Part shown: one piece after another, positions 1,606 through 17,535 of the stretch
How the letters are laid out: the number at the start of each line of letters is the position of its first letter
Position numbering within the stretch: position 1 is the stretch's first letter
Source: Dehalococcoidales bacterium
Lineage (GTDB): Bacteria; Chloroflexota; Dehalococcoidia; Dehalococcoidales; UBA2162
Reading direction: 5' to 3'
Assembly: GCA_020343555.1 (NCBI GenBank)
Contig: CP070800.1
Location: forward strand, 1,811,983-1,829,517
Length of the DNA stretch: 17,535 bases
Notes under the pieces: model-generated
Database searches by the model: none
Told to the model about the DNA's origin: nothing
Seen by the model: only the letters and a program-made list of their open reading frames with translations
Position numbers and translations under genes: made by a program

Positions 1606-1923
1606 ATGAAAATAGGTATTATCAGGTGTGGAGAACACAGCAATAACTGTGCAGGATTTCACTGCTTCCCGGCGTTGCAGGAAAAGAAGGGAAGTTTCGA
1701 AAGATATGGTGATATCGAACTGATAGGATTCGATACCTGTGGTGGTTGCGGCAGAGGTAAAGCTGACAAGATTTTAGAAAAAGCAACGAAGCTTAAAGAA
1801 AAGGGTGCCGAGGTGATACACCTCGGAAACTGCCTGGTACATCCATGTCCAACAGTTGACCTGTATGAGAAAACGATACAGGATGAACTGGAGATAGAAG
1901 TTATCAGAGGAACCCATCCCTAA
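1606..1923 (+). CDS. CGGC domain-containing small protein
   Basis: A complete 105-residue protein with ATG preceded by a GAGGAG Shine-Dalgarno about 9 bases upstream. It begins with a beta strand and a Cys (MKIGIIRCG), then NNCAGFHCF, the signature FDTCGGCGRGK near residues 68-78, and a C-terminal HLGNCLVHPCP motif. This cysteine pattern matches the CGGC domain, a small family thought to bind metal or take part in redox chemistry; no reaction is known to me. It has no signal peptide or membrane segment, so it is cytoplasmic. It lies 51 bases behind the UGSC selenoprotein gene with no terminator between them, so the two probably share a transcript and possibly a redox function. That link is inference from position. 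Confidence 0.8.
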   Translation: MKIGIIRCGEHSNNCAGFHCFPALQEKKGSFERYGDIELIGFDTCGGCGRGKADKILEKATKLKEKGAEVIHLGNCLVHPCPTVDLYEKTIQDELEIEVIRGTHP

Positions 1924-2053: not shown

Positions 2054-2875
2054 ATGTTCGGCCCCAGGTCTGCCATGCTTACTCTCTATGGCGATTACGT
2101 TCGTCATAGAGGCGGTGAAATTGGAATAGGTAGCCTCATAGCCCTCCTGAGTAACTTCGGCCTTTCCGAAAATTCCATCAGGTCAGCGGTTTCCCGCATG
2201 TGCCGTGCCGGCATATTAAAGGTAAGGCGAAATAAATCACGCAGTTATTATTCTCTTAGTGATGAGGGGCTTGCCTTGATGTCTAAAGGCGAGAGAAGGA
2301 TTTTCGAGCGGAAGCGCACCGAGTGGAACGGTCTATGGAACCTGGTCGTCTATTATATACCGGAACAGAACAGGGAAGCCCGTGATCGACTTCGACGGGA
2401 ACTTGCCTGGATGGGATTCGGCCCTTTGACTACCGCAACCTGGATATCACCCCATGACCTTACCGACGAAGTTATCGAGCTTGCAGATAAATTGAAAATA
2501 CGCTCTTATATACAGGTATTTCAGACCAGGATGAAGAATTCAAATGATCCGGCGGGGATAGTTGCCAGGTCCTGGGATCTCCAGAAAATACATAAAAGGT
2601 ATAATGCTTTTATAAAAGAATATCGAAAAAAAATGGAAGATCATCAGGCACGCATCGATAACGGAGAGAGCCTTGAATCCAGCGAATACTTTGTCCAGAG
2701 ATTCAAGCTGATCGACGATTATCGAAGACTGCCGTACCTGGACCCTGATCTTCCTGAAGAACTACTGCCAAAAAACTGGTTAAGATCTGAAGCAATGAAT
2801 ATATTCGATCGTTATCACGAAATGCTTACTGAAAAGGCAAACCAGTATTTCGATTCGGTGCTGGCAGAGTATTAG
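2054..2875 (+). CDS. paaX: PaaX-family transcriptional regulator
   Basis: This 273-residue protein has the length and layout of PaaX, the phenylacetyl-CoA-responsive GntR-like repressor. The N-terminal winged helix (about residues 1-75) carries SAMLTLYGDYVRHRGG and the recognition segment LSENSIRSAVSRMCRAGIL, followed by RSYYSLSDEG. The middle region has WNGLWNLVVYYIPE and LRRELAWMGFGPL, and the C-terminal region contains the family's RSWDL and W-L-R-S-E-A segments. GGTGA lies 6 bases before the ATG. PaaX proteins bind operators near genes for aromatic acyl-CoA metabolism and are released by a CoA thioester. The ligand here is unknown. The gene runs toward the Hdr operon, with only 9 bases between the two stop codons, so it may control that operon from its distal side. 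Family assignment is confident; target and ligand are inference. Confidence 0.88.
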   Translation: MFGPRSAMLTLYGDYVRHRGGEIGIGSLIALLSNFGLSENSIRSAVSRMCRAGILKVRRNKSRSYYSLSDEGLALMSKGERRIFERKRTEWNGLWNLVVYYIPEQNREARDRLRRELAWMGFGPLTTATWISPHDLTDEVIELADKLKIRSYIQVFQTRMKNSNDPAGIVARSWDLQKIHKRYNAFIKEYRKKMEDHQARIDNGESLESSEYFVQRFKLIDDYRRLPYLDPDLPEELLPKNWLRSEAMNIFDRYHEMLTEKANQYFDSVLAEY

Positions 2876-2884
2876 ACAGAAAGT

Positions 2885-3742
2885 TTAGAGTAGACCGAGT
2901 TCGGTAAGCTTGACTGAAGGATCGACAAAATGTTTCTTGGCCCAGCTTGATATACTCTGGCTGCCAAAAGCGTGTGCCATCAATTCACTGAAATAAAGTG
3001 AGGGTAACGGCTCAGTATTGTTCTCTTTCGGCTGACGCATATCCAGGTTTAATTGGCAGATACCACAGGCAGTTATTATCATATCAGCACCGGCTTCCCT
3101 GGCACCCCGTATAATCTTCCCGGATAATTTCTGAACTATTTCCGGAACAACCATGGAGAGAGAACCTCCGCAGCAGTCAACCTTGTAAGACCAGTCAACT
3201 ATCTCAACTCCCAGGGCTTCCATTAACTCGTCCATAATGATGGGATTCTCAGGATTATCGAAGGTGGTAACCTCAGGAGGGCGAACAAGAACGCATCCGT
3301 AATATGGTGCTACCTTCAGACCATCGAGAGGTCTTACTACATTTTCTCTGATATTTTCTAAACCGATATCCTGGTAAAGGATTTCCAGGACGTGATGTGA
3401 TTTATGTGAGAGATCAAGTTTGGCACCTATATCTTCTTCGATCTTTGATTTCAGCGCCGGATCTCTGTCAAGCTCGTATTCCGCGGTCTTAAAACGTAAT
3501 AAACAGCCCGGGCAGGGTGCGACAATGTCCAGGCTTATCTTTTCTGCGAGGGCAAGGTTACGTGAAGGAAGGGCGAGTGAAAGCTCGCGGTTGATAACAT
3601 GACCGGAACTGGCGCCACAACAAGTCCAGTCCGGTATTTCAGTGAATTCAATGCCTAGATATCCGGCTATTTCCTTTATGGATTCTTCATATTCTATCGA
3701 TGTTGTTGTTGCCGTACATCCGGGATAATATGCATATTTCAT
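2885..3742 (-). CDS. hdrB: HdrB-like heterodisulfide reductase subunit B
   Basis: A 285-residue cytoplasmic protein, the usual length for HdrB, beginning MKYAYYPGC. Both cysteine-rich CCG modules are complete: C9, C41-C42, C77 and C80, then C150, C190-C191, C226 and C229. In methanogen HdrB these positions ligate two noncubane [4Fe-4S] clusters that reduce the disulfide CoM-S-S-CoB. A bacterium would use another disulfide, another thiol partner, or only pass electrons, so the name describes the family and not the substrate. It is the last gene of the minus-strand operon, 27 bases behind hdrC, and its stop is 9 bases from that of paaX. It would be fed by HdrC and the selenocysteine HdrA fusion. 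Its Shine-Dalgarno is weak. Confidence 0.9.
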   Translation of the reverse strand: MKYAYYPGCTATTTSIEYEESIKEIAGYLGIEFTEIPDWTCCGASSGHVINRELSLALPSRNLALAEKISLDIVAPCPGCLLRFKTAEYELDRDPALKSKIEEDIGAKLDLSHKSHHVLEILYQDIGLENIRENVVRPLDGLKVAPYYGCVLVRPPEVTTFDNPENPIIMDELMEALGVEIVDWSYKVDCCGGSLSMVVPEIVQKLSGKIIRGAREAGADMIITACGICQLNLDMRQPKENNTEPLPSLYFSELMAHAFGSQSISSWAKKHFVDPSVKLTELGLL

Positions 3743-3769
3743 AAATTCGTCTTTACTCTGGTAAATATT

Positions 3770-4348
3770 TCAGCGAGAAAATACCTTTTTATAAATAGAC
3801 TTGATCTCTCCGGTCGAGTGTCTTTTCAACGAAGGAAATTTTATCTTTCCTTTTCTGAACATGCCGATTGCCATATTAGCCAGTTCTTTTAACTTTGGAA
3901 TAGAGAGGAACTCACGTGCTTTGAGTTCATAGCTTATCATCAGGCTTACTTCGTCGATCCTGCCCTTTTTCTTTATCTGATCCAGAAATGCCTGGTGAAA
4001 TTTGAGTATGTTACTCACCTGGCTGTTCACTCCGGCTTTTACCGATTCTTCACGAAGCATGTCCATAAGGCGGACAATCTCGATTTCATTGGGACAGCGT
4101 GTAGCACAGGTCTCGCAGGAAGCGCATAACCAGATGGTAGTGCTGTTTACTACTTTGTCTCTGAGACCCAGTCGAACGAGATGGATTATCTGGTTGGGGT
4201 AATAATCCATTGCATAAGCCACGGGGCATCCGTCGCTGCACATCGAGCACTGATAGCAACGATTGAGATACTTCACCTCAGCGGCTATTTTTTGGGCAAA
4301 TTCATTATTCCGGGGCGGTATTTTCTCCGTCGTCAGTTGCTGCTGCAC
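3770..4348 (-). CDS. hdrC: HdrC-like heterodisulfide reductase subunit C
   Basis: A 192-residue protein with two CxxCxxCxxxC [4Fe-4S] motifs, C31/34/37/41 and C75/78/81/85. This is the HdrC pattern, in which the clusters wire HdrA to HdrB. The sequence around them (YLNRCYQCSMCSDGCP and WLCASCETCATRCP) is typical. The listed GTG start overlaps the end of the HdrA fusion gene by 44 bases, with only a weak AAAGG upstream. A second in-frame GTG about 24 codons later, just before KYLNRC, follows the HdrA stop and is possible, so the start is uncertain. The C-terminal tail (residues 110-192) is helical and basic. It lies between hdrA and hdrB, so an HdrABC unit is expected. Confidence 0.9.
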   Translation of the reverse strand: MQQQLTTEKIPPRNNEFAQKIAAEVKYLNRCYQCSMCSDGCPVAYAMDYYPNQIIHLVRLGLRDKVVNSTTIWLCASCETCATRCPNEIEIVRLMDMLREESVKAGVNSQVSNILKFHQAFLDQIKKKGRIDEVSLMISYELKAREFLSIPKLKELANMAIGMFRKGKIKFPSLKRHSTGEIKSIYKKVFSR

Positions 4349-7300
4349 TTGCCGCTTTACCTTTCTTCTTTGGTAGCGTCCTCTTATCCCTGAGAATTGT
4401 AAGTTGTTCTTTCTGCTCTTCGTTTAATTCAAGATGACCCAGTTTGGTAATTTCATTGGTATAATCATTTATCATTCCCGCAAAAGCTGCTCCCTCTGCG
4501 GCTGAGGCGAATTCTAGTTTTAGCCTGGATGGTTCTATCCCCATTTTTTCAAGGCCTTGCTGGGTAATAGGAATAGTGCGTATCTGCTGCTGGACACCGG
4601 TAATGTAATGGCAGTCCGCAGGATGGCATCCTACTATGAGGACAGCATCCATCCCTTTCAGATAAGCGTCATAGACGAACTTGGGGTGCACCCGACCGGA
4701 ACACAGGACTCTGATCGCACGGGTGTTGGAGGGGTATTGGATCCTGGATACTCCGGCAAGATCGGCAGCTGCATAACCACACCAGTTGCAGAGAATTGTT
4801 AATATTTTTGGTTTGTCAGCATCTATAGGTATCGAATAGGCTGCTTCTATCTGTGAGAATATTTGCTGATCGGTGAAGTGGTTCAAGGAAATAGCGTGGG
4901 TCGGACAAACGGCGTTACATACACCGCACCCTTTGCAGGCGGCAGGAATCACATTAGCAACTTTCCCTTCCTCTGTTTCAAGCATCTCAATGGCATTGTA
5001 AGGACAGCCCCTTGTACAGAGACTGCAGCCGATACAATCTTCCTGGTTTACTTCACAGACAGCTCCACTGGCAACAATGGTATCCTTGGAAAGGATAGTA
5101 GCCGCTCGTAGAGCTGCGCCTTTCGCCTGGTTGATGGAGTCAGGAATATCCTTGGGATATTGCGACATGCCACAGAGGAAGATGCCATCGGTTGCGAAAT
5201 CAAGCGGTCTGAGTTTCATATGGGCTTCCATAAAGAATCTATCACCGGTTAACGGCAATCTTAGTAATTGGGATAATTCCTGGTTACCGTCGGGAACGAC
5301 AGGAGTACTGAGTACGACCAGGTCTGGCTTGCTTTCTCCCTTCATGTTGATGGTGCTGTCATAGTAGTGAAGAGAAAGACTGTCACCGTTTACTGATACC
5401 TCAGGCTGTTTTTCCGGTTCATACTGGATGAACAGGACACCTTTATCTCTGGCTTCGAGGTAGTAATCCTCTTTGAAACCATATGCCCTCATGTCCCGGT
5501 AAAATACCGTAATGTCTATATCTGGATTCAGTTCCTTAAGCTTTAATGCGTTTTTCAAGGCTACGCCGCAGCAGATACGACTGCAATAACCGTGTTCTTC
5601 ATTTCTGGCGCCAACACACTGGATCATGGACACATTATTGATACTTTCAGGCAAATTACCGGCAGAGATCATCTCTTCAAGTTCCTGCTGGGTCAGTATA
5701 CTGGTACTCTGTTCATAACAATATTCGGTAGGAGTATAAGCACTCCCGCCGGTGGCAAGTATGGTAATACCATGCTGAAGTTCGACAGCCTCTGATTCGG
5801 GTTCTCCGGTCTTGGTCAGCGTGCTTTTAAAGTTGCCAACATACCCGGCGAAATTTACCAGTTCGTGCCCCTTATAAAGCGTAATATTCTTTTCATTTTC
5901 TACTTCTGAGATTATCTGTTCGAGATAAGGTCCGACTTCCAGACCTTCAAGCGTGTAGTGGATATGCCTGGCGTGACCACCCAGTTCGTTTTCTTTTTCT
6001 ACGAGGTAAACTTCGAATCCCTGTCTGGCAAGAGAGAGAGCCGCGTTCATTCCAGCCAGGCCACCACCGAGAACGAATCCTTTCGGATTAACCGGGAGCT
6101 CAAGTTCCTCGAGTTCGGTAAGATTGCGTGCCCGGGCGACAGACATGGCGATAGTGTCTTTGGCTTTTTCAGTGGCTTCTTCTTTTTCGAATGAATGTAC
6201 CCAGGTGCAATGCTCCCTGATATTTGCCATATCCAGTAAATAGGGATTCAGACCTGCTTCACGTAATGCTTCCCGAAAGACGGTTTCATGATCTCTGGGA
6301 GTACAAGCTGCCACAACGACTCGATTCAGATTCTGTGCTTTAATGGCTTCTGTTATTTTTCGAAGTGCGTCAGAACCGCACGAAATAGTCTGTTGTTCTG
6401 AGTGAACTACATCTTCAAGCGTCCGGGCATATTCGACAAGAGCAGGAACATCGGCAACTCCGGCGATATTAGTGCCGCAGTTGCACACGAAAACCCCGAT
6501 CCTTGGTTCTTCTCCTTCGACAGACCTTTCATTGGGATATATCTTGGTCTGAGCGAGAGTTCCACGCTGACTCGCTAGTAACTGGGCAGCCATCGCTCCG
6601 GAACCGCTGGCTGAACTGATAGAGTCGGGAATATCGATAGGTGCAGTAAACGCTGCGGCTGGATAGATACCGGGTTTGCCGGCAATCTCATTGGGAGTTA
6701 ATCCACCCGTTTCACAGAAACCGTGCTCATTAAGTTCGAATCCCATTATTTCAGATAACGCCGCATTATCTTTTGCCGGACTCATCCCGACGGAGAGTAC
6801 GATCATGTCGAATTCTTCTTCTACTACTGTATGATCGTCGGTGACATAAGAAACGACGAGATTATTATTTCGCTTGTTTTCCTTGACGGAAGAAATTCTC
6901 CTTCTGATAAACCGGGCGCCTTCCATTTCCATGGCCCGGTTATAAAAATCTTCGAAACCTTTGCCGAATGTCCTGATATCATTGTGGAATATAGCTACTT
7001 CGATATCCGGGTGATGATTCTTTACGAGGATCATCTGTTTCAGGGCGTAGGTGCAGCATATTCCCGAACAGTAGGTATTTCCCAGCCCTGAATCGCGTGA
7101 ACCGATGCATTGAAGCCATGCTATCTTTTTCGGCACCTTTCCATCGGATAGACGTACAACCTCACCATTAAATGGCCCTGAAGCGTTCGACATTCGTTCG
7201 AACTCAAGACTGTTGACCACGTTCTTCATGCGACCGTAGCCATATGCACCGGCTAACTTCGCGTCGAATATCTCATATCCGGGACTGACAATAATCGCCC

Positions 7301-7874
7301 CGACGTGCATTATCCCTCTTTTCTTTTTCTGCTTGAAGTCGATTGCCTTTGCCTGGCAGACAGATTTGCATATGGTGCATTTATCATCGAAATAAAGGCA
7401 GGCTTCACGATTGACAGCCGCAGAAGCAGGAATTGCCTGGGGACACCAGATATCTATCGCTTTTGCAGGTCCGAGATTTTCATCAAAAGGATTTGAAACG
7501 GTGTAAGGACAGTAGGTTGCGCAGTTTCTGCAACCAACACAAAGATCTTCATCTACATATCTGGGCTGTCGAAGCACAGTGACAGTAAAATTGCCGGCTT
7601 CACCTTCTACCTTTTCTATTTCGGTATTAGCCAGTATTTTAATATTGGGATGCCGACCGGCATCCGCCATTTTAGGCCCGAGTATTCAGAGAGAGCAATC
7701 AAGTGTCGGGAAGGTTTTGTCCAGCTGGGCCATCTTCCCGCCTATCATTGGTGATTTTTCAGTCAGGTATACTTTAAAACCGGAATCAGCAAGGTCTAAA
7801 GCTGACTGTATTCCACTGATCCCCCCTCCTACAACCAGTACTGCTCCAATAGGTGAGTTTGCAGTTTCTGCCAT
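4305..7874 (-). CDS. hdrA: Selenocysteine-containing HdrA-HdrA-MvhD fusion
   Basis: A 1189-residue flavin/iron-sulfur protein when the TGA at 7688-7686 is read as selenocysteine 63. The two flanking open frames join in the same frame and rebuild the HdrA signature [14 protein letters not shown], where Cys is usual. Domains: FAD fold 1 with GGGISG (about 12-20); a ferredoxin insert with C112/115/118/122 and C159/166/169/173; a second HdrA copy from about 460 beginning VFVCNCG, with GGGLAG near 603; two [4Fe-4S] motifs at C947/950/953/957 and C980/983/986/990; then an MvhD-like domain from about 1020 with CNWC at 1029-1032. The second copy lacks the DCxxC motif and has HIHYTLEG instead. Its ATG overlaps the ferredoxin stop by one base (TAATG), behind GGAGG. 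HdrA is the FAD bifurcating subunit and MvhD its [2Fe-2S] electron entry. Sec forms of HdrA are known in methanogens. Bifurcation here is inferred. Confidence 0.9.
7648..7688 (-). promoter_or_regulatory. Selenocysteine UGA codon and SECIS-like hairpin in hdrA
   Basis: The UGA occupies 7688-7686 on the minus strand. Downstream in the coding sequence, GGATGCC (7665-7659), loop GGTC (7658-7655) and GGCATCC (7654-7648) form a perfect 7-bp stem. The loop begins 28 nt after the UGA, about 10 nt farther than in the first selenoprotein of this window, but the loop sequence is identical. The hairpin encodes D-A-G-R-H-P of the conserved HPNI region, so part of it is constrained by the protein. Confidence 0.7.
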
Positions 7875-8344
7875 TAAAGCTCCTCCACAACTACCGTTTC
7901 ATCCTCATCTTCGACCTCTTCTTCAACTTCAATCTCCTCGTAAGTCAAAGCCTCGGTCCCACACCACTGAACACATAACGGGCCATCTTCGGGCATCGGT
8001 TCGCCGCACATATCGCATTCTAACGCCAGACCGGAATCCGGTTCGTGGAAGATTTCTCGGGACGGGCATGCCTGTCGGCAGAATGAACACTCTCCGTATT
8101 CTTTTCCATCGATGACAGTGACGTTTCTGCCAATGCATTCTACCTCGGTATATTTACCTGCCCTGATGGGAAGATAGATATCGGTATCTTCGCAGCGAAA
8201 TACCTGGATTCGGGATCTTGCCGGGTTAACGATACTGTATTTCGGTTCGGCATGATAAGCTGCACAGGCTACTTCGCAAGCACGACATCCCGTGCATTTA
8301 TCTGCATTTACCTTAATCGTCTTGATTGTTCTTGTTCTTATCAT
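7874..8344 (-). CDS. BamC-like multi-cluster ferredoxin subunit
   Basis: A 156-residue iron-sulfur protein with 13 cysteines: C17/20/23/27 (classical [11 protein letters not shown] motif), C51, C70, C86/89/93, and C110/113/124/128. The spacing resembles the electron-transfer subunits of molybdenum and tungsten enzymes and could hold about three [4Fe-4S] clusters. It ends in a very acidic tail (about residues 136-156). AAGG lies 7 bases before the ATG, and the stop overlaps the hdrA start. Lying directly behind a BamB-like tungsten enzyme gene, it is best read as that enzyme's electron-transfer partner, as BamC is for BamB, connecting the active-site subunit to the HdrA fusion. The pairing comes from gene order and family resemblance. 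Confidence 0.85.
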
Positions 8345-8408
8345 CTTGATACCTTTTATCAGAGAATACTGTTTAATTCGCGAAAGAATGGGAAAATGTC
8401 AAATGATT

Positions 8409-10316
8409 CTAAAGGATACCCCTCTTAATGAAATCTTCGGCGACATATCCTAACTGTAATTTTTCAAGTGTTTCTTTGGTTGGTATCCCGTCCTTGTTCC
8501 AGCCGCGGTACTCGTAATAATCATCAAGGAGTTTCTGTTCAAACTCATGGTCTCTTACTGCCCAGTGATCGGCAGGAGGTACTTCGTCAACTCTTCGCAT
8601 CCCTCTCCTTATATTGAGAGCTCGTATAAGATTACGAATTCTTGTACCGGTTTCCCAGAGACTTTTTTCATCGTAATTCATGCCTGTAGTCAGGTTGATG
8701 ATAGTGGGGAGATTATGAATGTGATAGGCTACTCTTCCACCGAACTGACCTCTGAATGATGATAAGAATCCGCAAATCCCGTCGGAATCATCGAGCGTGT
8801 GCATCATCTCGTTCCACTCGGTGATAGCACAGGAGTCCAGGTTCGATATCTCGTTGCGTTTTTCCCAGTTGAGGAAGATTTGCTTGAATCTTTCATCCGG
8901 AACAGCTTCCCAGTCATCTACGAATGCCTGCCGTTCTTCCATGGTAGGGAGTGGATCCTGGGGGAAAGATCCCTCGATCTGGGTTATCGCCATCTTGTTC
9001 GCGGTTGCTATCATCAGGAAATATGGAGGATTAAGCTTACCAAGTTTTATTGGGAGTTGTTCGAATTTCTTGACGGTATTATGATCGAACGCTTCGGCAC
9101 CATTTCCTATCTGTCGAGCAGCGTGATAGACTCCGTTCGCCAGTTTGTCACCTATACCTTCTCTCCTGACGATCATGTCCATGATATGATAGAACCTGCC
9201 CCGAATATCCTCCGGCATTCCGGGAAAGTCATTTTCTGTAAGGATACCTGCATCGAGAAGCTCAAGCGTGAACGCTATGATCTGTGGTGTGGAATAGGCA
9301 TCCAGACCGTATTCCGTGGCAATTGGTAATATCTCATAACTGAAATCCAGTTCCTGGTATGATGCCATGTGATAGGTGTCTTTGGCATAACATTTATAGG
9401 AAAATCTATTACGACCCGGCCATGAAATGACGTTATGGCATTTTTTGGGGCAGTTGTAACAGCCGGTCTGACGATCCATGTAGTCGTATTTCCAGTTAGC
9501 CCACCGATCCTGTAGATCCTCATTCCAGTAATTCTTGATTCTTGTCCGGGCATTACCCCATGCAAAATTATTATGATGAAAGCTGTCATCCTCATCGACT
9601 GCCATCCAGTCGCCAACATTGTCACTGTCCTTCATAATGATGCGTAAGTCCTGACATATCTTGAATAATTCTGCCGGATTGTGGATATGAATGTCCTGGG
9701 TTCCTCGGACTGCAATTGCTTTTACCTTCTTATCACCCATGATTGCACCGACGCCAGCACGTGAGGCACAGGCATCACTGTGGTCAATGGATGCGGTAAA
9801 GACTCTGTTTTCACCTGCAAGACCTATTGCTGCTACCTGTGCTTTCTCCTGGCCAAGTTCTTCACGTATAATGGTGGCGGTCTCGTGCGTACCTTTACCG
9901 GCGAGGTGTGACGCATCTCTTATCTCAACCTTGTCATTGTGTATCCATATATATACCAGACTGGGTGCTTTGCCTTTTAGGATAATTTTGTCGTAACCGG
10001 CGTATTTCATTTCCGGACCGAAATAACTGCCCATCAGTGAATGAGCCTGGAGATTGGTTTGTGGAGAAAAGGTGTTTACAGCTACTCGATTGGCCCCGGG
10101 AACCGGAGTACCATGAAGTAAACCCGTGCTGAAAATGAGGAGATTTTCTTCCGAGAATGGTTCGGTTTCGGGAGGGACTCTATCCCAGAGTATCTTGGCT
10201 GCTGTTCCCTGACCACCAAGATATAACTCGGTGTTCCTGATATTGGTTTCTACCTTTTCTATGCTACCGGTAGTAAGGTTGATCTCAAGATTAAAACCAG
10301 TCTCTCCGTACCTCAT
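8409..10316 (-). CDS. Tungsten aldehyde:ferredoxin oxidoreductase family, BamB-like
   Basis: A 635-residue protein of the aldehyde:ferredoxin oxidoreductase family, close to the ~650 residues of BamB, the catalytic subunit of class II benzoyl-CoA reductase. It starts MRYGETGFNLEINLTTGSIE, the BamB-like opening. It has the N-terminal pterin-binding region (GANRVAVNTFSP, then SLMGSYFGPEMKYAGYD) and the [4Fe-4S] motif CYNCPKKC (C286/289/293), with the fourth ligand C496 in NLDSCAIT. These match the AOR cluster spacing. The expected cofactor is tungsten bis-pterin. The reaction could be low-potential reduction of an aromatic or alicyclic acyl-CoA, or aldehyde/acid conversion; the sequence does not decide. 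AGGGAG lies 7 bases before the ATG. It is the first gene of the minus operon, about 125 bases downstream of its predicted promoter. The family is certain; the BamB likeness is moderate. Confidence 0.88.
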   Translation of the reverse strand: MRYGETGFNLEINLTTGSIEKVETNIRNTELYLGGQGTAAKILWDRVPPETEPFSEENLLIFSTGLLHGTPVPGANRVAVNTFSPQTNLQAHSLMGSYFGPEMKYAGYDKIILKGKAPSLVYIWIHNDKVEIRDASHLAGKGTHETATIIREELGQEKAQVAAIGLAGENRVFTASIDHSDACASRAGVGAIMGDKKVKAIAVRGTQDIHIHNPAELFKICQDLRIIMKDSDNVGDWMAVDEDDSFHHNNFAWGNARTRIKNYWNEDLQDRWANWKYDYMDRQTGCYNCPKKCHNVISWPGRNRFSYKCYAKDTYHMASYQELDFSYEILPIATEYGLDAYSTPQIIAFTLELLDAGILTENDFPGMPEDIRGRFYHIMDMIVRREGIGDKLANGVYHAARQIGNGAEAFDHNTVKKFEQLPIKLGKLNPPYFLMIATANKMAITQIEGSFPQDPLPTMEERQAFVDDWEAVPDERFKQIFLNWEKRNEISNLDSCAITEWNEMMHTLDDSDGICGFLSSFRGQFGGRVAYHIHNLPTIINLTTGMNYDEKSLWETGTRIRNLIRALNIRRGMRRVDEVPPADHWAVRDHEFEQKLLDDYYEYRGWNKDGIPTKETLEKLQLGYVAEDFIKRGIL

Positions 10317-10435
10317 ATGTAAACTCCCTGAAGATTACTCAACCCCGTAATGGTGGCACGGGTGAATGTCAGTCCGGTATTCGGATGAAAGAATGATCTG
10401 TTTTGAGTATGTCACAATAATCATACTGCGTGTAT

Positions 10436-10447
10436 ATAACGTCATAT
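10436..10447 (-). repeat. Operator candidate, copy 1 of ATATGACGTTAT
   Basis: A 12-bp sequence that reads ATATGACGTTAT on the minus strand. It is an exact inverted copy of 10623-10634 and sits in the initial transcribed region of the minus promoter. Its core TGACGT is near-palindromic. The matching position relative to both -10 boxes suggests one regulator controls both operons. Confidence 0.55.
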
Positions 10448-10449
10448 GA

Positions 10450-10478
10450 ATAGTATCACGCACACATTTGTATGTCAA
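10450..10478 (-). promoter_or_regulatory. Predicted promoter of the minus-strand operon
   Basis: On the minus strand, TTGACA (10478-10473), a 17-base spacer and TACTAT (10455-10450) give a good sigma-70-like promoter. The 12-mer ATATGACGTTAT begins 2 bases after the -10, over the expected transcription start. The leader to the ATG at 10316 would be about 125 bases. Confidence 0.55.
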
Positions 10479-10590
10479 CACTGGCAGTGCGAAATATGCC
10501 ATGAAATAGTATCATATATCTAAAGAATGATTTATGCAAACAGACTATTCATCATACCCTCTCCTCAGTCTCAAAACACTATTGGCGCTA

Positions 10591-10620
10591 TTGACATATA
10601 CCTCGACGACATGTCATTAT
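10591..10620 (+). promoter_or_regulatory. Predicted promoter of the plus-strand operon
   Basis: TTGACA (10591-10596), an 18-base spacer and CATTAT (10615-10620; 4 of 6 consensus bases) precede the HdrD-like gene at 10713. As in the opposing promoter, the 12-mer ATATGACGTTAT starts exactly 2 bases after the -10. A TGACAT/ATGTCA dyad spans the -35 to -10 interval. Confidence 0.5.
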
Positions 10621-10622
10621 GG

Positions 10623-10634
10623 ATATGACGTTAT
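10623..10634 (+). repeat. Operator candidate, copy 2 of ATATGACGTTAT
   Basis: An exact copy, on the plus strand, of the 12-mer at 10436-10447. It sits 2 bases after the plus-strand -10, over the expected transcription start. A weaker relative, ATAACGCTATAT, occurs at 2025-2036 downstream of the paaX promoter and differs from the inverse of the 12-mer at two positions. Confidence 0.55.
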
Positions 10635-10712
10635 TTTTACGCTGTCAAACAATAGTGACATACTATTTCAATCAGAAATGTAGGAAATGCAACGGGAAAG
10701 GTACGGAGTGAC

Positions 10713-11861
10713 ATGCAGGCATTAACACCATACCCGGAAGTGATCGATCTTATTAAAGAAGAGGGCGGTGATCCTCTTAAATTATGTTACCAATGTGGAA
10801 CCTGTTCAGCCACGTGTCCATGGAATCTGGTGAAGAATTTTATAGTTAGAAAGGTTATGCACCAGGGACAGCTAGGACTGATTGACTTCGAAAGCGAAGA
10901 GCTATGGATGTGTGCCACCTGTAAAGCATGTGTCGACAGGTGCCCCCGCGGGGTAGCAATAATCGATGTCATACGGGCAATGAGAAGGGCGATTGTTGAA
11001 TTCAGCGTTGGCGGTATTCCTGACGGCTTGCGAATATCGATGAAGAATATTTCCGCTACCGGAAATCCACTCGGTGAATTGGAAGAAAACCGGGCCGACT
11101 GGACGAAGGATCTTGATATAAAACCTTACTCCAAGGGCATGGACGTACTTTACTTTTCATGCTGTATACCTGCCTATGATCCGAGTGTCCAGAGGGTAGC
11201 AAGAGCAACTGCAAACGTATTGAAAAAGGCTGGCGTGAAGTTCGGAATACTCGGTACCGCGGAAAAATGCTGCGGTGAAAGTGTCCGAAAAGCCGGTAAC
11301 GAGGATCTTTTCAAGGCACTGGCTGAGACTAACATAAGCAACTTTAAAGAAGCCGGAGTTACCCGTATAGTAGCTACTTCGTCCCATTGCTATAATACAT
11401 TTAAGAATGAATATCCCGAACTTGGCGGCGAATTCGAAATCCTTCATTCTTCCCAGTTTATCGCCGAACTCATCGATGAAGAAAAAATAACGTTTTCTAA
11501 AGAGATAAATAAGAAAGTTACTTACCATGACGCCTGTTATCTTGGAAGGCACAACGATGTTTATGATGAACCGAGGAAAGTCCTCCAGAGTATCCCGGGG
11601 ATTGAGCTGGTTGAAATGACCGATAATCGAGAAAACAGTTTATGTTGCGGTGGTGGTGGTGGAAGAATCTGGATGGATACTAAAAAGGGTGAACGGTTCA
11701 GCGATTTGCGAATTGAGCAGGCGATAGAAACAGGAGCTGAAATCCTTGCTGCTGCCTGCCCCTATTGTATTCTTAACTTCGAAGACGGTCTTCGTTCAGG
11801 AGAAAACGAAGACGCTCTGGTTATAAAAGATATCGCCGAACTAGTTGATGAAGCGATGTAG
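10713..11861 (+). CDS. HdrD-like fusion of HdrC and HdrB domains (BamD-like)
   Basis: A 382-residue iron-sulfur oxidoreductase. The N-terminal HdrC part holds two [4Fe-4S] motifs, C25/28/31/35 and C67/70/73/77. The HdrB part holds two CCG modules: C150-C151, C186-C187 and C226 (with S-S-H-C in place of a usual CxxC pair), then C275, C311-C312, C349 and C352. This is the layout of HdrD, of BamD in class II benzoyl-CoA reductase operons, and of related GlpC/LutA-type proteins. It starts the plus operon; GGAG lies 4 bases before its ATG. The first CCG module looks less complete than the second, so perhaps only one noncubane cluster forms. It is probably the electron acceptor/donor subunit of the second Hdr set; its substrate is unknown. 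Confidence 0.85.
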   Translation: MQALTPYPEVIDLIKEEGGDPLKLCYQCGTCSATCPWNLVKNFIVRKVMHQGQLGLIDFESEELWMCATCKACVDRCPRGVAIIDVIRAMRRAIVEFSVGGIPDGLRISMKNISATGNPLGELEENRADWTKDLDIKPYSKGMDVLYFSCCIPAYDPSVQRVARATANVLKKAGVKFGILGTAEKCCGESVRKAGNEDLFKALAETNISNFKEAGVTRIVATSSHCYNTFKNEYPELGGEFEILHSSQFIAELIDEEKITFSKEINKKVTYHDACYLGRHNDVYDEPRKVLQSIPGIELVEMTDNRENSLCCGGGGGRIWMDTKKGERFSDLRIEQAIETGAEILAAACPYCILNFEDGLRSGENEDALVIKDIAELVDEAM

Positions 11862-11869
11862 AGAAGTTT

Positions 11870-11874
11870 GGAGG
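11870..11874 (+). promoter_or_regulatory. Shine-Dalgarno that fixes the hdrA start
   Basis: GGAGG lies 8 bases before ATG 11883. A longer in-frame start, TTG 11868, would overlap this site and has no ribosome binding site of its own, so ATG 11883 is chosen. Confidence 0.75.
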
Positions 11875-11882
11875 CTCGTTCA

Positions 11883-13856
11883 ATGGATGAGAAACCTCGA
11901 ATAGGCGTTTACGTGTGCCACTGTGGAATGAATATTGCCGGTGTTGTCGACGTAGCATCGGTCGCTGAATATGCAGCCGGACTTCCTGATGTAGTGGTAG
12001 CAAAAGATTATATGTACATGTGTTCTGACCCCGGTCAGAACATGATCAAGGAAGATATCAAGGAGAATAATCTCAACCGGGTTGTCGTTGCTTCGTGTTC
12101 TCCAATGCTGCATGAACACACCTTTAGAGTTGCCTGCCAGGAAGCTGGAATAAATCCTTATATGTTTGAAATGGCGAATATCCGTGAGCAGGATTCCTGG
12201 GTGACCGCTGATAAAGATGATGCCACCGAGAAAGCCAAGTCGACCGTCGAAGCTGCCGTACGCTGGGTACAGCACCAGCAGCCGCTGGAAGTCAGGGAAG
12301 TATCGGTAAATCCTAACGTGATGGTTGTCGGCGGCGGGATTGCCGGAATGAGAGCGGCACTCGATATAGCCAACTCGGGGAATAAGGTTTACTTGGTAGA
12401 ACGCGAACCCAGTATCGGCGGTCATATGGCCCAGTTCGATAAAACGTTCCCGACTCTTGACTGCGCAAGCTGTATTTTTACTCCTCTTCTCAGTGAAGTC
12501 GGGAGAAACGAGAATATCGAGTTGATGGCTTACAGCGAAGTTGAAGAAGTAAACGGCTATATCGGAAATTTCACCATTAAAGTCAGGCAAAAAGCGCGAT
12601 ATATTGATGCAGATAAATGTACTGGGTGCAGCACCTGTGTTGAAAAGTGCCCGTTTAAGGTACCAAGCACATTTGACGAAGGAATGAACAACAGAAAGGT
12701 TGTTTATATACCTTTTGCTCAGGCGATACCGAATATAGCGACAATTGATGCTGAACACTGTAAGTACCTTGAAGACGGAAAATGTGGAGCCTGTAAGAAA
12801 TTCTGCCAGGCTGATGCGGTGGATTTTGAGCAAAAGGATGAAATCGTTGAGGTAGAAGTCGGATCGGTAATTCTTGCCACTGGGTACGATCCATTCGATC
12901 CTGCCCAGATAGAACGCTACGGGTACGGAAAATATGATAACGTTATTACTGCTCTCCAGTTCGAAAGAATGAGCAACGCATCCGGGCCGACGCTTGGCGA
13001 GATTCAATTAGCTGATGGCTCAAAACCTGAAAGTGTAGCAATTGTACACTGTGTCGGTAGCAGGGATACTAACTATCACGAATACTGTTCAAGAGTCTGC
13101 TGTATGTATGCTCTGAAATATTCGCACCTTATCAAGGAAAAGACAGAAGCCAATGTGTACCAGATGTACATCGATATGAGGTGTTTCGGTAAAGGTTACG
13201 AAGAGTTTTATAACAGACTTGCTGATGAGGACACTACTTTTATTAGAGGAAAAGTAGGGCAGATAACAGATAAAGCTATTAGCGATGAAGAACAGGGTAA
13301 ACTGGTCGTGGTCGTTGAGGATACTTTGCTTGGCAGTATCGTTCGCGTTCCGGTAGACATGGTCGTCCTGTGTACGGCACTGGAACCGAGAGAAGATGCA
13401 AATGAAGTCGCCCAGCTTTTCGGTATTAACCGAAGTGCCGACGGATTTTTCCTTGAAAGACATCCGAAACTCGATCCTGTCGCAACAATGAGTGACGGCC
13501 TTTATCTGGCAGGATGCTGCCAGGGACCGAAAGACATACCGGACACTGTCGCTCAGGCTTCGGCGGCAGCCGGAAAAGTCTTATCCATGATAAGCAGAGG
13601 TAAGGTTGAAGTTGAAGCTGCTACTGCGTCTGTTGATGAAGAGGTGTGTACCGGTTGCGGACAGTGCGCCGCGGTATGTGCCTACAAGGCTATAGAAATA
13701 GATGAAAAACGGAAAATTGCCGAAGTCAATGCAGCTCTTTGTAAAGGATGTGGATCATGCGCAGCTCAATGTCCTTCAAGCGCAATTCAGCATAAGAACT
13801 GGACACCGAAACAATTTTTCGAGAAAGTAGACGCAGCTACGCGGGTGTATTTATAG
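11883..13856 (+). CDS. hdrA: HdrA-like FAD/iron-sulfur protein
   Basis: A 657-residue protein matching the usual length of HdrA. The N-terminal domain opens with IGVYVCHCGMNIAGVVD and contains the CSDPGQ motif (47-52). The thioredoxin-reductase-like FAD domain has GGGIAG (150-155). The signature FPTLDCASC has C194 and C197; Cys stands where the other operon's HdrA has selenocysteine. A ferredoxin insert has C246/249/252/256 and C293/301/304/308. Two C-terminal [4Fe-4S] motifs lie at C589/592/595/599 and C620/623/626/630. In HdrABC-Mvh complexes HdrA holds the bifurcating flavin; QmoA and BamE are relatives. It follows the HdrD-like gene by 21 bases and precedes the tandem HdrA by 9, so all three are surely cotranscribed. 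Confidence 0.92.
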   Translation: MDEKPRIGVYVCHCGMNIAGVVDVASVAEYAAGLPDVVVAKDYMYMCSDPGQNMIKEDIKENNLNRVVVASCSPMLHEHTFRVACQEAGINPYMFEMANIREQDSWVTADKDDATEKAKSTVEAAVRWVQHQQPLEVREVSVNPNVMVVGGGIAGMRAALDIANSGNKVYLVEREPSIGGHMAQFDKTFPTLDCASCIFTPLLSEVGRNENIELMAYSEVEEVNGYIGNFTIKVRQKARYIDADKCTGCSTCVEKCPFKVPSTFDEGMNNRKVVYIPFAQAIPNIATIDAEHCKYLEDGKCGACKKFCQADAVDFEQKDEIVEVEVGSVILATGYDPFDPAQIERYGYGKYDNVITALQFERMSNASGPTLGEIQLADGSKPESVAIVHCVGSRDTNYHEYCSRVCCMYALKYSHLIKEKTEANVYQMYIDMRCFGKGYEEFYNRLADEDTTFIRGKVGQITDKAISDEEQGKLVVVVEDTLLGSIVRVPVDMVVLCTALEPREDANEVAQLFGINRSADGFFLERHPKLDPVATMSDGLYLAGCCQGPKDIPDTVAQASAAAGKVLSMISRGKVEVEAATASVDEEVCTGCGQCAAVCAYKAIEIDEKRKIAEVNAALCKGCGSCAAQCPSSAIQHKNWTPKQFFEKVDAATRVYL

Positions 13857-13865
13857 AGAGAAGAG

Positions 13866-16800
13866 ATGGCGGACAGTAAAGAACATTCAGTCCTTGTTAT
13901 AGGCGCGGGTGTCGGCGGTGTCAAAGCGTCTCTTGAACTTGCCGAATCAGGATTAAAAGTCTATCTGTGCGACCTTAGCCCTGATATAGGCGGTACACTC
14001 ATGCAGATGGACAAATGGTTTCCGAACAGTCACTGCGGAATGTGCCAGATGTTGCCTCTGGTCGTTGGCGATGAGTCCGTTCAATTCTGCCTTAGACGTG
14101 GACTGAACCACCCAAATATCGAATTTCTCCCCCTGACATCGGTCGAAAAACTTGAAGGTCAGGCTGGGGATTTTACAGTGATCCTGAAGAAAACATCCAT
14201 GGGCGTGAAACGTGATCTATGCTCAGGTTGCGGTCTCTGTGCTGAAGTCTGCCCGATTGAAGTCGACAGCGAATTTAACCAGGGACTCGAAAAAAGAAAA
14301 GCTATATATGTAAGAAATCCGATGGTTGCTTCTAATGCGTACCTTATCGACTGGAACAGCTGCACGAAGTGCGGTTTATGTGCAGAGAAATGCCCGAATA
14401 GCGCGATCGATCTGGATGCACAGGAAGAGACTCTGGAGATAAAAACCGGAGCTGTCATACTCTCAACCGGCTTCGAGGAATTCAATGCCAAGAAGACAAG
14501 CGAATACGGATACCAGCGTTTTCCGAACGTATTGACAAGCATTGAGATGGAAAGAATGTTGAGCCCGTCAGGACCGACCGATGGAAATTTGCAGCGGACC
14601 TCGGATGGAATTATGCCTTCGTCACTGGCATTTCTGCAGTGTGTCGGTTCGAGAGAGCTAGAATATAACTACTGCTCGTCTGCCTGCTGCATGTATGCCA
14701 TTAAAGAAGCTGTCCTGGCCAAGGAAGTAAATCCGGATATAGATATAACCATTTTCTACATGGACATTCGGGCTTTCGGTAAGGGCAACTATAAGTACTT
14801 CCTGGAAGCCAGAGATAAGTACGGTATCAAATTTGTCAGAACGCGGGTGCCAGCCATAAAACGCGATTTCCTGACGGATAATATTCTGCTGTCTGCAAGA
14901 GATGAAAATGGTAGCATAAACGATTATTCTTTCGAGATGGTGGTATTGTCGGTCGGGCAAGTGCCACCACCGGGATTTTCAGACTTGAGTGATGCTCTAG
15001 GGTTGGAGACAAACCGGTGGGGATTCTGCGAAAGCAACATATTTTCGCCGGTCGAAACGAGTAAAGAAGGTATCTTTGTATGCGGTTCAGCTTCGGCACC
15101 GAAAGACATTGCCGATACCCTTGTTGAGGCCGGGGCGGCAGCCAACAGGGTAATGTCCTTATTATCTGTATCTCGGACCATAGAAGAACCAACTGAAGAA
15201 GTTAATGAAGAGTTGGATGAAGAAACCGGAACTGCAGTAATAATATGTGGCTGTGGTGGTGAAATTGGATCGGTAATCGATATCGATCGGATCCTGGAGT
15301 ATAGTAAAGGATTACCCGGCGTGGTCTATGCATCAAAATCCGATTTCTTATGCGAGAAAGATGGATTTTCCAGGCTGGCTGATGAAGTAAAACAGGCCAA
15401 AGCCGGTAAACTGGTGATTGCTGCCTGTCCTTCCACGATCATAGCCGGGCAGATGAACCAGGCGTTTAAAGATGCCGGACTTAACAAAGTATTTACTCAG
15501 TTTATTAACCTTCGGGAAGGCATTGCCTGGGTGCATAAGGATGAACCGGAAGCGGCAACGGAAAAAGCCAGGAAACTTATCGCCATGGCTGCTGAAAGAG
15601 CAAGACTCCAACAGAACACTGCACTACAGTCAAGTACAGTAAATGGAGGAGCTCTTGTTATAGGCGGAGGTTTGAGCGGAATGATAGCCGCTTCATCCAT
15701 CGCTGAACAGGGATACGAAGTTCACCTTGTTGAGAGATCGGATAAACTGGGAGGGAATCTTCAACATATTCACACTACTCTTTCCGGTGATGATCCTCAG
15801 AAATTACTGTCGGATACTGTAAAAGGTATTGAAGAAAATACCCTGATTGATGTGTACCTGGATTCTGAAATCAAGGAATGTTCCGGGTATGCCGGGAATT
15901 TTGTCGTTACGATCGTAACCGGTGACGAAGAAATTCCGCTTCAGGTCGGTTCAGTGATACTTGCCACAGGAGGTAGTGAGTACGAACCTCAAGAGTATTC
16001 CTGTAAAGAAAGTGATAGCATTATCACCCAGTCCGAACTGGAACAGAAAATTGTTTCCGGTGATTTGGAAGTTGAAAACATGAGTTCCGTGGTGATGATA
16101 CAGTGTGTCGGCTCACGGAATGCAGAGAGACCATACTGCAGTCGCATCTGCTGCAGCCAGGCGATCAAGAATTCACTGGAGATAAAGAAACAGAATCCGG
16201 ATTGCCGGGTATACGTTCTTTATCGTGACATTATGAGTTATGGTTTTCTAGAAGAATATTACACGAAAGCCAGGGAAGCCGGTGTGATATTTATCAGGTA
16301 TAACGAAGATGACGAACCTCGTGTTATTGCCGAAGGCGGAAAAGTAACGGTTGAGTTTCAAGAGCCTGCACTGGGAGACACGATAACTCTGGAGACGGAT
16401 ATAGTTGTATTAAGTCCGGCAGTATTGCCCCAGGAAAGTAATGCCGGATTGGCTGATATGCTTGACCTGGAACTGACTGAAAACGGTTTCTTTAAAGAAG
16501 CGGAAGTAAAATTCCGCCCGGTAGATTTTACCCGTGAAGGTATCTACGCTTGCGGCTTGGCGTTATATCCCAGGAACGTGAGTGAGAGTATAACTGAAGC
16601 TCAGGCTGCTGCGCAAAGAGCAGTAACGTTGCTTGGTCGTGGTCGACTTCAGGCATCACCTATCGTCGCAGAGGTCAATCCCAGGTGGTGTACCGGCTGT
16701 GAACTTTGTATTGAAGCATGTCCTTATGGAGCGAGAATAAAGGATATTATGAAAGGTATCGTCGTGGTAAGGGAAGCATTATGCCAGGGGTGTGGTGCCT

Positions 16801-16886
16801 GTGCTGCCGTATGTCCCAGTGGTGCTACCAGGCTGAGACAATTTACCGATAAACAGGTATTCTCGATGATCGATGCGGGAATATAG
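13866..16886 (+). CDS. Tandem HdrA-like flavoprotein without MvhD domain
   Basis: A 1006-residue protein made of two HdrA-like halves. Half 1: FAD motif GAGVGG (13-18), WFPNSHCGMC with C57/C60, ferredoxin motifs C119/122/125/129 and C166/169/172/176, then GSRELEYNYCSSACC. An acidic linker (about 439-455) leads to half 2, which begins VIICGCGGEIGSV near 456 and has a second FAD motif GGGLSG near 598. The region of the DCxxC motif reads HIHTTLSG instead. YCSRICC follows, then C-terminal clusters C942/945/948/952 and C973/976/979/983. It is a paralogue of the first 1015 or so residues of the minus-strand fusion, but stops where that one continues into MvhD. It probably extends the electron relay between HdrA and MvhD/FrhB, with two flavins expected. 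Confidence 0.88.
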   Translation: MADSKEHSVLVIGAGVGGVKASLELAESGLKVYLCDLSPDIGGTLMQMDKWFPNSHCGMCQMLPLVVGDESVQFCLRRGLNHPNIEFLPLTSVEKLEGQAGDFTVILKKTSMGVKRDLCSGCGLCAEVCPIEVDSEFNQGLEKRKAIYVRNPMVASNAYLIDWNSCTKCGLCAEKCPNSAIDLDAQEETLEIKTGAVILSTGFEEFNAKKTSEYGYQRFPNVLTSIEMERMLSPSGPTDGNLQRTSDGIMPSSLAFLQCVGSRELEYNYCSSACCMYAIKEAVLAKEVNPDIDITIFYMDIRAFGKGNYKYFLEARDKYGIKFVRTRVPAIKRDFLTDNILLSARDENGSINDYSFEMVVLSVGQVPPPGFSDLSDALGLETNRWGFCESNIFSPVETSKEGIFVCGSASAPKDIADTLVEAGAAANRVMSLLSVSRTIEEPTEEVNEELDEETGTAVIICGCGGEIGSVIDIDRILEYSKGLPGVVYASKSDFLCEKDGFSRLADEVKQAKAGKLVIAACPSTIIAGQMNQAFKDAGLNKVFTQFINLREGIAWVHKDEPEAATEKARKLIAMAAERARLQQNTALQSSTVNGGALVIGGGLSGMIAASSIAEQGYEVHLVERSDKLGGNLQHIHTTLSGDDPQKLLSDTVKGIEENTLIDVYLDSEIKECSGYAGNFVVTIVTGDEEIPLQVGSVILATGGSEYEPQEYSCKESDSIITQSELEQKIVSGDLEVENMSSVVMIQCVGSRNAERPYCSRICCSQAIKNSLEIKKQNPDCRVYVLYRDIMSYGFLEEYYTKAREAGVIFIRYNEDDEPRVIAEGGKVTVEFQEPALGDTITLETDIVVLSPAVLPQESNAGLADMLDLELTENGFFKEAEVKFRPVDFTREGIYACGLALYPRNVSESITEAQAAAQRAVTLLGRGRLQASPIVAEVNPRWCTGCELCIEACPYGARIKDIMKGIVVVREALCQGCGACAAVCPSGATRLRQFTDKQVFSMIDAGI

Positions 16887-16901
16887 ACGGGGAGACAGAT
16901 A

Positions 16902-17327
16902 ATGAGTGATAAGTACGACCCGGTTATAGTGGGATTTTTCTGCAACTGGTGCACATCGACTGCAGCAGACCTTGCCGGTACAAGCCGAATGCAATATCCG
17001 GCAAATGTGAGAGCTATAAGAACGATGTGCAGCGGATCGGTCGACCCGGTCTATATTCTGAGAGCATTACTCAGCGGAGCTGATGCAGTAATAGTAGGCG
17101 GTTGCGCTCCGGGCGACTGTCATTACGTTTCCGGTAATTATAAAACAAGACGAAGGATCAAAGCTCTTAAGACCATACTGAATACGTTAGGTCTGGATGA
17201 TGAGAGAGTCTGGTTGAGATGGATAAGCGCCTCGGAAGGCGGAAAATTTGCCGAGACGATGAAAGAAATAACCGGGGAAATGGAAAAGAAAGGTCCTAAT
17301 CCTCTGAATAAACAGTGGACGGTCTAG
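16902..17327 (+). CDS. mvhD: MvhD-like hydrogenase iron-sulfur subunit
   Basis: A 141-residue protein of the MvhD/FrhD family. It shows VGFFCNWCTSTAADLAG with C14/C17, then TMCSG with C43, and GGCAPGDCHY with C68/C73, the cysteines that bind a [2Fe-2S] cluster. In methanogens MvhD passes electrons from hydrogenase or formate dehydrogenase to HdrA; BamF is a bacterial relative. GGGGAG precedes the ATG. It begins 16 bases after the tandem HdrA stop. The opposite operon has the same domain fused to its HdrA, which supports a direct contact between the two here. All key positions are cysteine, with no UGA. Confidence 0.92.
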   Translation: MSDKYDPVIVGFFCNWCTSTAADLAGTSRMQYPANVRAIRTMCSGSVDPVYILRALLSGADAVIVGGCAPGDCHYVSGNYKTRRRIKALKTILNTLGLDDERVWLRWISASEGGKFAETMKEITGEMEKKGPNPLNKQWTV

Positions 17328-17340
17328 ACAGGAGGATATG

Positions 17341-17535
17341 GTGCGTAACGCAATATTAGATACAAGCAAAGATGGAATGCTGGAGTCGATAAAAGGATTT
17401 CTTAAAGGTCTGCTTGAGAAAGAACTGGTAAACGCAGTCTTGGTTCCGGTCGAACTTCCTTCCGGGAACAATGTGGTACAGACACTCGTCAGTAATCCGG
17501 AGAAGCTGGATTCGGCTAATCCTCTTGCTCCGGTA
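17341..17535 (+). CDS. FrhB-type F420 hydrogenase/dehydrogenase beta subunit, 3' end outside window
   Basis: The first 65 residues of an open frame that runs off the window. The segment ESIKGFLKGLLEKELVNAVL, then VPVELPSGNNVVQTLVSNPE and a final PLAPV, resembles the start of FrhB/FdhB-like flavoproteins that accompany HdrA-MvhD sets in bacteria. These carry FAD and iron-sulfur clusters and exchange electrons with F420, NAD(P)H or ferredoxin. AGGAGG (17330-17335) lies 5 bases before GTG 17341. ATG 17338, one codon earlier, is only 2 bases from that site, so GTG is preferred, but the difference is one residue. It follows mvhD by 13 bases. The family call rests on a short N-terminal piece. Confidence 0.7.
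   Translation, partial: MRNAILDTSKDGMLESIKGFLKGLLEKELVNAVLVPVELPSGNNVVQTLVSNPEKLDSANPLAPV

Follow-up and report, generated by a model that had tools for sequence, protein, structure and literature searches.

The closest described relatives of the locus reported here are the class II benzoyl-CoA reductases, the BamBCDEFGHI enzymes of Geobacter and Desulfosarcina. These operate at about -622 mV, with Glu251, His255, Glu257 and His260 acting as zinc ligands and proton relay and Cys322 as the tungsten ligand (PMC12096430). One proposal is that BamGHI gives mid-potential electrons to the HdrA module, which then yields one electron of low potential for the ring and another of high potential; the same paper states that what the bifurcation truly is could not be demonstrated (PMC9304861). 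BamE proteins with selenocysteine (Sec) and duplicate BamB genes are already known (PMC5109826), and neither Sec in a tandem HdrA nor a duplicated BamB is new. Here, we analyse 17,535 nucleotides of a Dehalococcoidales bacterium genome (assembly GCA_020343555.1, contig CP070800.1, positions 1,811,983 to 1,829,517; this whole stretch is called the window), in which an operon with a BamB-type tungsten subunit stands back to back with a second operon of Hdr genes. We propose that the two may encode a pair of soluble redox machines that are co-regulated and probably coupled, a reading that we put forward with evenly balanced confidence.

The two divergent operons are real, and every gene named in the original prediction was found on the strand given for it (Table 1). 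The left operon, on the minus strand, runs from the BamB-type tungsten subunit through a BamC-type ferredoxin, a Sec-HdrA·HdrA·MvhD fusion and HdrC to HdrB. The right operon, on the plus strand, consists of a fused HdrC-HdrB (HdrCB), HdrA, a tandem HdrA·HdrA, MvhD and an FrhB that runs off the window end. Within each operon the genes overlap or are closely spaced. The nearest genome found, Dehalococcoidia bacterium W403 (G001, locus L001), shows the same order across the UGSC gene, the left operon and the right operon, with proteins that are 85-97% identical. Its contig stops inside the tandem HdrA and the remainder lies on contig C99, where the tandem HdrA end is 96%, MvhD 99% and FrhB (over the piece in the window) 98% identical to the window proteins. 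On C99 the right operon's own HdrC and HdrB come after FrhB; in the window copy, any such pair would lie beyond the window end. The opposite fusion choices that had been ascribed to the operons (MvhD fused and HdrBC split on the left, the converse on the right) are thus seen within the window, but the contrast fails for the whole right operon of W403, which extends to a split HdrC-HdrB of its own. A full Hdr path had also been claimed for each operon; two Hdr paths are indeed present. Of the two CCG motifs of the right HdrCB, one is full and the other partial.

Alignment and phylogeny put the window BamB in the class II benzoyl-CoA reductase family, where it belongs to a distinct loop-less clade. 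It retains Cys322, the tungsten ligand of the family, together with His260, which is the sole residue kept from the zinc and proton-relay set: the loop with Glu251 is absent, His255 is replaced by Glu and Glu257 by Asp. Across an alignment of 191 BamB sequences (120 of them chosen for their likeness to the window BamB), the Glu251 position is a gap in 134, Glu in 47 and another residue in 10, while His260 is found in all 191 and Cys322 in 190. Glu251 is not universal even where the loop exists, being Glu in 47 of the 57 loop-bearing rows and absent in 10. A quick tree of 77 sequences places the 22 loop-less BamBs on one side of a branch with a Shimodaira-Hasegawa-like approximate likelihood ratio (SH-aLRT) support of 100, and the window BamB nests among BamBs whose operons hold BamD and BamE. 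Both BamB types occur together in W403, G398, G399, G043, G066, G002, G003 and G011, and the substrates reduced by the loop-less clade may differ. Published Bam-type enzymes fall into two clades, 62 and 63 (PMC13328260), of which clade 63 may or may not match the loop-less clade.

The window was predicted to hold an undescribed relative of Bam, and this stands for the tungsten head but not for the Hdr chain behind it. As in class II reductases, a BamC ferredoxin subunit is present, on a long branch of the BamC tree that gives it no settled position. In a quick tree, a single clade unites the 37 BamE tandems (SH-aLRT 99) and leaves out the left HdrA tandem. Forcing the left tandem beside the BamE of G399, a genome with a BamB that is close kin to the window BamB, is rejected by the approximately unbiased (AU) test (p 0.0013, and p 0.00045 with G321 added). 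BamD, a fused HdrCB, is not in the left operon, which has a split HdrC and HdrB instead. The left HdrB and its homologs (40 of 120 listed, taken as every third) make up one clade of 42 rows (SH-aLRT 100), to which neither the HdrB of the stand-alone module described below nor that of loci L082 and L085 belongs. The simplest account of the left operon would be a reductase-family BamB joined to a different Hdr chain. In the two loci just named, from a Spirochaetes metagenome-assembled genome (L082:6302-14386) and from G043 (L085:1892-15468), bam operons without a fused BamD have split HdrC and HdrB of another clade following MvhD.

As in Bam, the left tandem HdrA appears to carry selenocysteine, as suggested by an in-frame TGA, a selenocysteine insertion sequence (SECIS)-like hairpin just behind it and a tRNA-Sec match in W403. 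The hairpin has a folding energy of -17.6 kcal/mol (z -2.21), with 5 of 200 shuffles folding equally well. The tRNA-Sec match scores 68.2 bits against a cut-off of 47, a cut-off that 5 of 14 control genomes also pass. Scanned against Rfam at gathering scores, the window gave no match.

The right operon belongs, by gene trees and gene order, to a module that is otherwise found on its own in Dehalococcoidia (loci L112, L118-L129 and L145-L158) and for which we found no published name. The window's tandem HdrA lies within the module clade (28 rows, SH-aLRT 100), and the right HdrB of W403 is nearest to module HdrBs, which puts both proteins in module clades. The order tandem HdrA, MvhD, FrhB, HdrC, HdrB is seen in 24 of 27 module loci, the other three being cut by a contig end; the right operon follows it as far as FrhB in the window and as far as HdrB in W403. 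The FrhB-like assignment itself comes from the W403 copy, which matches PF04432 and the FdhB chains 9t1s_M, 8rvu_E and 7bkb_E. In its own tree, the right HdrCB joins those from eight module loci, G400 and G405 (97/92) and falls outside 36 BamD rows; on this tree, the idea of a BamD relocated out of a bam operon was rejected. No hydrogenase or formate dehydrogenase catalytic subunit, the partner expected of an Hdr-MvhAGD system, is found among the window genes. As to other settings, in L118:1-14690 the Hdr-FrhB module lies between NuoF/NuoG-like and TfrA/SdhA-like genes, in what looks like a soluble NADH-Hdr-fumarate-reductase-type system. The HdrCB, tandem HdrA and MvhD of L131 (G186) and L133 (G164) lie close to the Bam clades without entering them; the L131 genes adjoin those for a BamC-like protein (41%) and a remote AOR-like protein (28% to BamB), and this may be a non-reductase AOR-Hdr system.

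At the family level the left and right systems are independent. BamB (E<=1e-100) occurs in 14 of 393 genomes of the class set and in 15 of 156 of the order set, and at 52% identity or more in 18 different genomes, among which the right module is confined to W403 and G345. The right tandem HdrA occurs in 18 of the 393 class genomes at E<=1e-260, with 13 scoring above 1000 bits, and in 18 of the 156 order genomes at E<=1e-290, each of which exceeds 1000 bits. Not counting W403, in which the copy is cut, 27 genomes in total have a right tandem above 1000 bits, and 26 of these show no BamB (E<=1e-100), the exception being G345, where BamB lies on a different contig. Most of these genomes are drafts of unstated completeness, and some absences may be gaps.

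The operons probably do stay together in the window's own lineage, that is, in W403 and in three further contigs. These contigs, of 289,595, 139,766 and 120,605 bases, appear in all three homolog lists with, in that order, BamB at 88, 83 and 75%, left HdrB at 76, 71 and 71% and right tandem HdrA at 81, 74 and 63% identity. Contigs were equated across lists by eye, through equal base counts and overlapping source labels among the best 120 matches per list; the lists do not give gene order, and absence from one proves nothing. On that footing, contigs of 23,975 and 57,013 bases are in the BamB and left HdrB lists only. With the window excluded and contigs of at least 20 kb considered, a right tandem at 60% or more is found on eight, of which three recur in the left HdrB list and five do not; a BamB at 75% or more is found on seven, of which five recur in the left HdrB list and three in the right tandem list. 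The check proposed in the original prediction, joint conservation of the two operons, therefore gives a divided answer: together in the lineage, independent in the families. Outside the lineage, this is the outcome that the original prediction had itself named as refuting it.

A shared control region had also been predicted, and the same element of about 47 bp is present at both promoters. Its two copies form an inverted repeat, each directly downstream of a promoter-like pair, and when read along each operon they are identical at 35 of 47 positions. The promoter-like pairs are weak alone (3 in the region against 2.0 expected from shuffles). With a match scored +1 and a mismatch -1, an equally good repeat arose in none of 150 shuffles when the arms had to be over 100 bp apart, and in 6 of 1500 when any arms were allowed. 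Both copies are kept in W403, where the element core, a pattern drawn from the two sites themselves, has two exact matches in 3.3 Mb, both at these promoters. It is on this basis that the two operons are probably co-regulated through the shared element. A wider regulon was considered and rejected, since the W403 sites with 1 and 2 mismatches fall inside coding genes (URO-D-like by eye); at up to 3 mismatches, the core gives 10 and 14 sites per strand, about as many as the reversed control pattern (10 and 9). The first candidate regulator of both operons would be the PaaX-family protein at the far end of the left operon, because 15 of 22 other BamB loci of the class Dehalococcoidia have a PaaX gene no more than 4 kb from BamB.

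Table 1. Features of the two operons and of their control region in the window.
Feature	Position	Strand	Remarks
PaaX-family regulator	2054..2875	+	far end of left operon; candidate regulator of both operons
HdrB	2885..3742	-	two full CCG motifs; distinct HdrB clade
HdrC	3770..4348	-	two CxxCxxCxxxC motifs; overlaps fusion gene by 44 nt
Sec-HdrA.HdrA.MvhD fusion	4305..7874	-	1189 aa, read through one TGA
SECIS-like stretch	7640..7688	-	hairpin GGAUGCC-GGUC-GGCAUCC, starting 23 nt after the first base of the TGA
In-frame TGA, read as selenocysteine	7686..7688	-	aligns with Cys of 5odc_A HdrA, DCSxC motif
BamC-type [4Fe-4S] ferredoxin subunit	7874..8344	-	186 bits to 4z3w_E
BamB-type tungsten subunit, class II benzoyl-CoA reductase family	8409..10316	-	784 bits to 4z3w_A; AFOR_N/AFOR_C; loop-less clade
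Divergent control region, intergenic	10317..10712	.	
Shared promoter element, left copy	10406..10452	-	
Promoter-like TTGACA-17-TACTAT	10450..10478	-	left operon
Promoter-like TTGACA-18-CATTAT	10591..10620	+	right operon
Shared promoter element, right copy	10618..10664	+	
Fused HdrC-HdrB	10713..11861	+	one full and one partial CCG motif
HdrA	11868..13856	+	ATG 11883 probably the true start; 770 bits to 5odc_A along its length
Tandem HdrA.HdrA	13866..16886	+	Cys at the Sec position
MvhD (FlpD)	16902..17327	+	
FrhB/FdhB-like subunit	17338..17535	+	start about 17338; cut by window end

In light of this arrangement, what might the two operons do? In the reading that we prefer, the left machine would have a BamB-BamC tungsten and ferredoxin head of the class II benzoyl-CoA reductase family, with the usual partners BamD, BamE and BamF replaced by Sec-HdrA·HdrA·MvhD, HdrC and HdrB. 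The HdrA flavin would split mid-potential electrons, the low-potential electron passing via BamC to the tungsten site, where an aromatic or related acyl-CoA may be reduced, and the high-potential electron passing via HdrC to the two clusters of HdrB. The right module would probably supply or remove electrons for the left machine in place of the NADH-linked BamGHI; the direction of electron flow, the substrate, the carrier and the coupling are all inferred. We put the right module in the BamGHI position because the window is without BamGHI and an FrhB-bearing HdrA module shares the promoter element, the position itself being that which PMC9304861 proposes for BamGHI as the donor of mid-potential electrons to the HdrA module. 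NuoE/F/G-like BamGHI genes are absent among the window genes, with W403 and the remaining genome not searched for them.

The original prediction had left a choice between one large soluble complex and two coupled machines. A single complex, in which the right module docks in place of BamGHI on the left BamBC-HdrA-HdrC-HdrB assembly so that two HdrA bifurcation stages work in series, would fit the promoter element common to both operons, the lack of BamGHI genes in the window and the known Bam enzyme, which is described as a single assembly of some 1 MDa (PMC12096430) and as having two bifurcating modules (PMC9304861). Against it, the right module needs no left partner: of the 27 other genomes with it, 26 show no BamB, and the W403 copy brings an HdrC-HdrB pair of its own; no test favours the single complex, the stand-alone nature of the right module better favours two machines, and we consider one complex quite unlikely. 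A transfer of the left HdrC-HdrB from the tail of the right module, which would have proved a single machine, was rejected since the right operon of W403 keeps its own pair and the left HdrB is of a separate clade. The same independence raises the opposite alternative, in which the operons are co-regulated neighbours with unrelated work and the right module serves general cofactor balance during aromatic acid use, exchanging no electrons directly with the left machine. The module is common without Bam, and in L118 it sits between NuoF-like and TfrA/SdhA-like genes. We nevertheless judge this unlikely, as the exact element core in W403 is at these two promoters only and, if the contig reading is right, the two systems share contigs down to about 63-75% identity.

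A further alternative concerns the substrate and is compatible with two coupled machines: the loop-less BamB may not be a benzoyl-CoA reductase, and would instead reduce, or in reverse oxidise, another acyl-CoA. The missing Glu251, the changes at His255 and Glu257, the separate clade and the eight genomes with both BamB types all point this way. However, Cys322 and His260 are kept, Glu251 is also missing from 10 of 57 loop-bearing rows, and loop-less members occur in operons with BamD and BamE (L083, L159 and L164, with NuoE/F/G-like genes, by eye, also in L159). We give this alternative a substantial chance, somewhat short of an even one. More ambitious, and rather unlikely, is the proposal that the locus represents a second design of tungsten aromatic-ring reductase, in which a loop-less BamB would be served by two HdrA bifurcation stages, the FrhB-fed right stage replacing the NADH-linked Bfu/BamGHI and the left stage replacing BamDEF, with one regulator acting through the twin promoter elements.

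Several observations weigh against two co-regulated, coupled machines built around a different Hdr chain. The repeat is weaker under other scoring, being equalled in 12 of 1500 shuffles with a mismatch of -1.25 and in 5 of 400 with a mismatch of -1.5, and in W403 it is matched by 17 of 400 shuffles. The branch of the left HdrA tandem is long, and any attraction of long branches under the model affects the AU test as well. The absence of BamD is not special alone, since BamB, BamC and a tandem HdrA occur without it in no fewer than six other loci (L080, L082, L085, L095, L160 and L161). Finally, contig C28 of W403 carries canonical BamB, BamC and BamD and the start of BamE, so that the left machine may not be the main benzoyl-CoA reductase of that organism. 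As a whole, then, the original interpretation is partly supported.

Other genes in and around the locus deserve mention. At the left edge of the window, a UGSC-family selenoprotein gene (1-1554, plus strand) has an in-frame TGA at 190-192, a long C-terminal extension and a start outside the window, and is 93% identical in W403; it adjoins a gene for a CGGC-domain protein (1606-1923, plus strand) that is 96% identical there. Downstream of the right operon of W403 (L175:5133-7109) lie two genes that we take to be MmgE/PrpD-like. The 3.3-Mb genome of W403 is rich in tungsten-enzyme-type genes, with 23 matches to the AOR/BamB family (E<=1e-30).

If the same kind of head does sit on a different Hdr chain, next to a second, co-regulated Hdr module, this natural variant amounts to a swap experiment made by evolution. 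Such a swap would show which parts interchange, and the proposed two-stage bifurcation can be tested clearly on it. No publication was found on the BamB and Hdr-FrhB combination in Dehalococcoidia or Chloroflexota, most subscription papers being outside the search coverage, and a divergon of this kind is not described in the available parts of PMC10570749, PMC5736913, PMC6129605, PMC13101534 and PMC13416013.

How, then, does the locus compare with known systems? It resembles class II BamBCDEFGHI in having BamB and BamC homologous to chains A and E of 4z3w, with Cys322 and His260 kept, and in having a selenocysteine tandem HdrA, MvhD and HdrC/HdrB-type proteins, as BamD-F are. It differs in that the Glu251 loop is absent, the HdrA tandem is outside the BamE clade, MvhD is fused, HdrC and HdrB are split, BamD is not in the operon and BamGHI are not in the window. 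The methanogen HdrABC-MvhAGD and formate-linked Hdr complexes (5odc, 7bkb, 9t1s) share with it an HdrA flavin subunit, MvhD, HdrC, a two-CCG HdrB and an FdhB-like subunit, whereas the window has a tandem HdrA and a Bam-family tungsten head, and no hydrogenase or formate dehydrogenase catalytic subunit. With the stand-alone Dehalococcoidia module, the right operon has in common the order of tandem HdrA, MvhD and FrhB, the HdrC-HdrB that follows FrhB in W403, and an HdrA-like gene just upstream, as in most module loci though not in L112. Unlike the module, it has HdrCB at its head (in L129 and L152-L158, HdrCB follows HdrB) and shares its control region with a BamBC operon.

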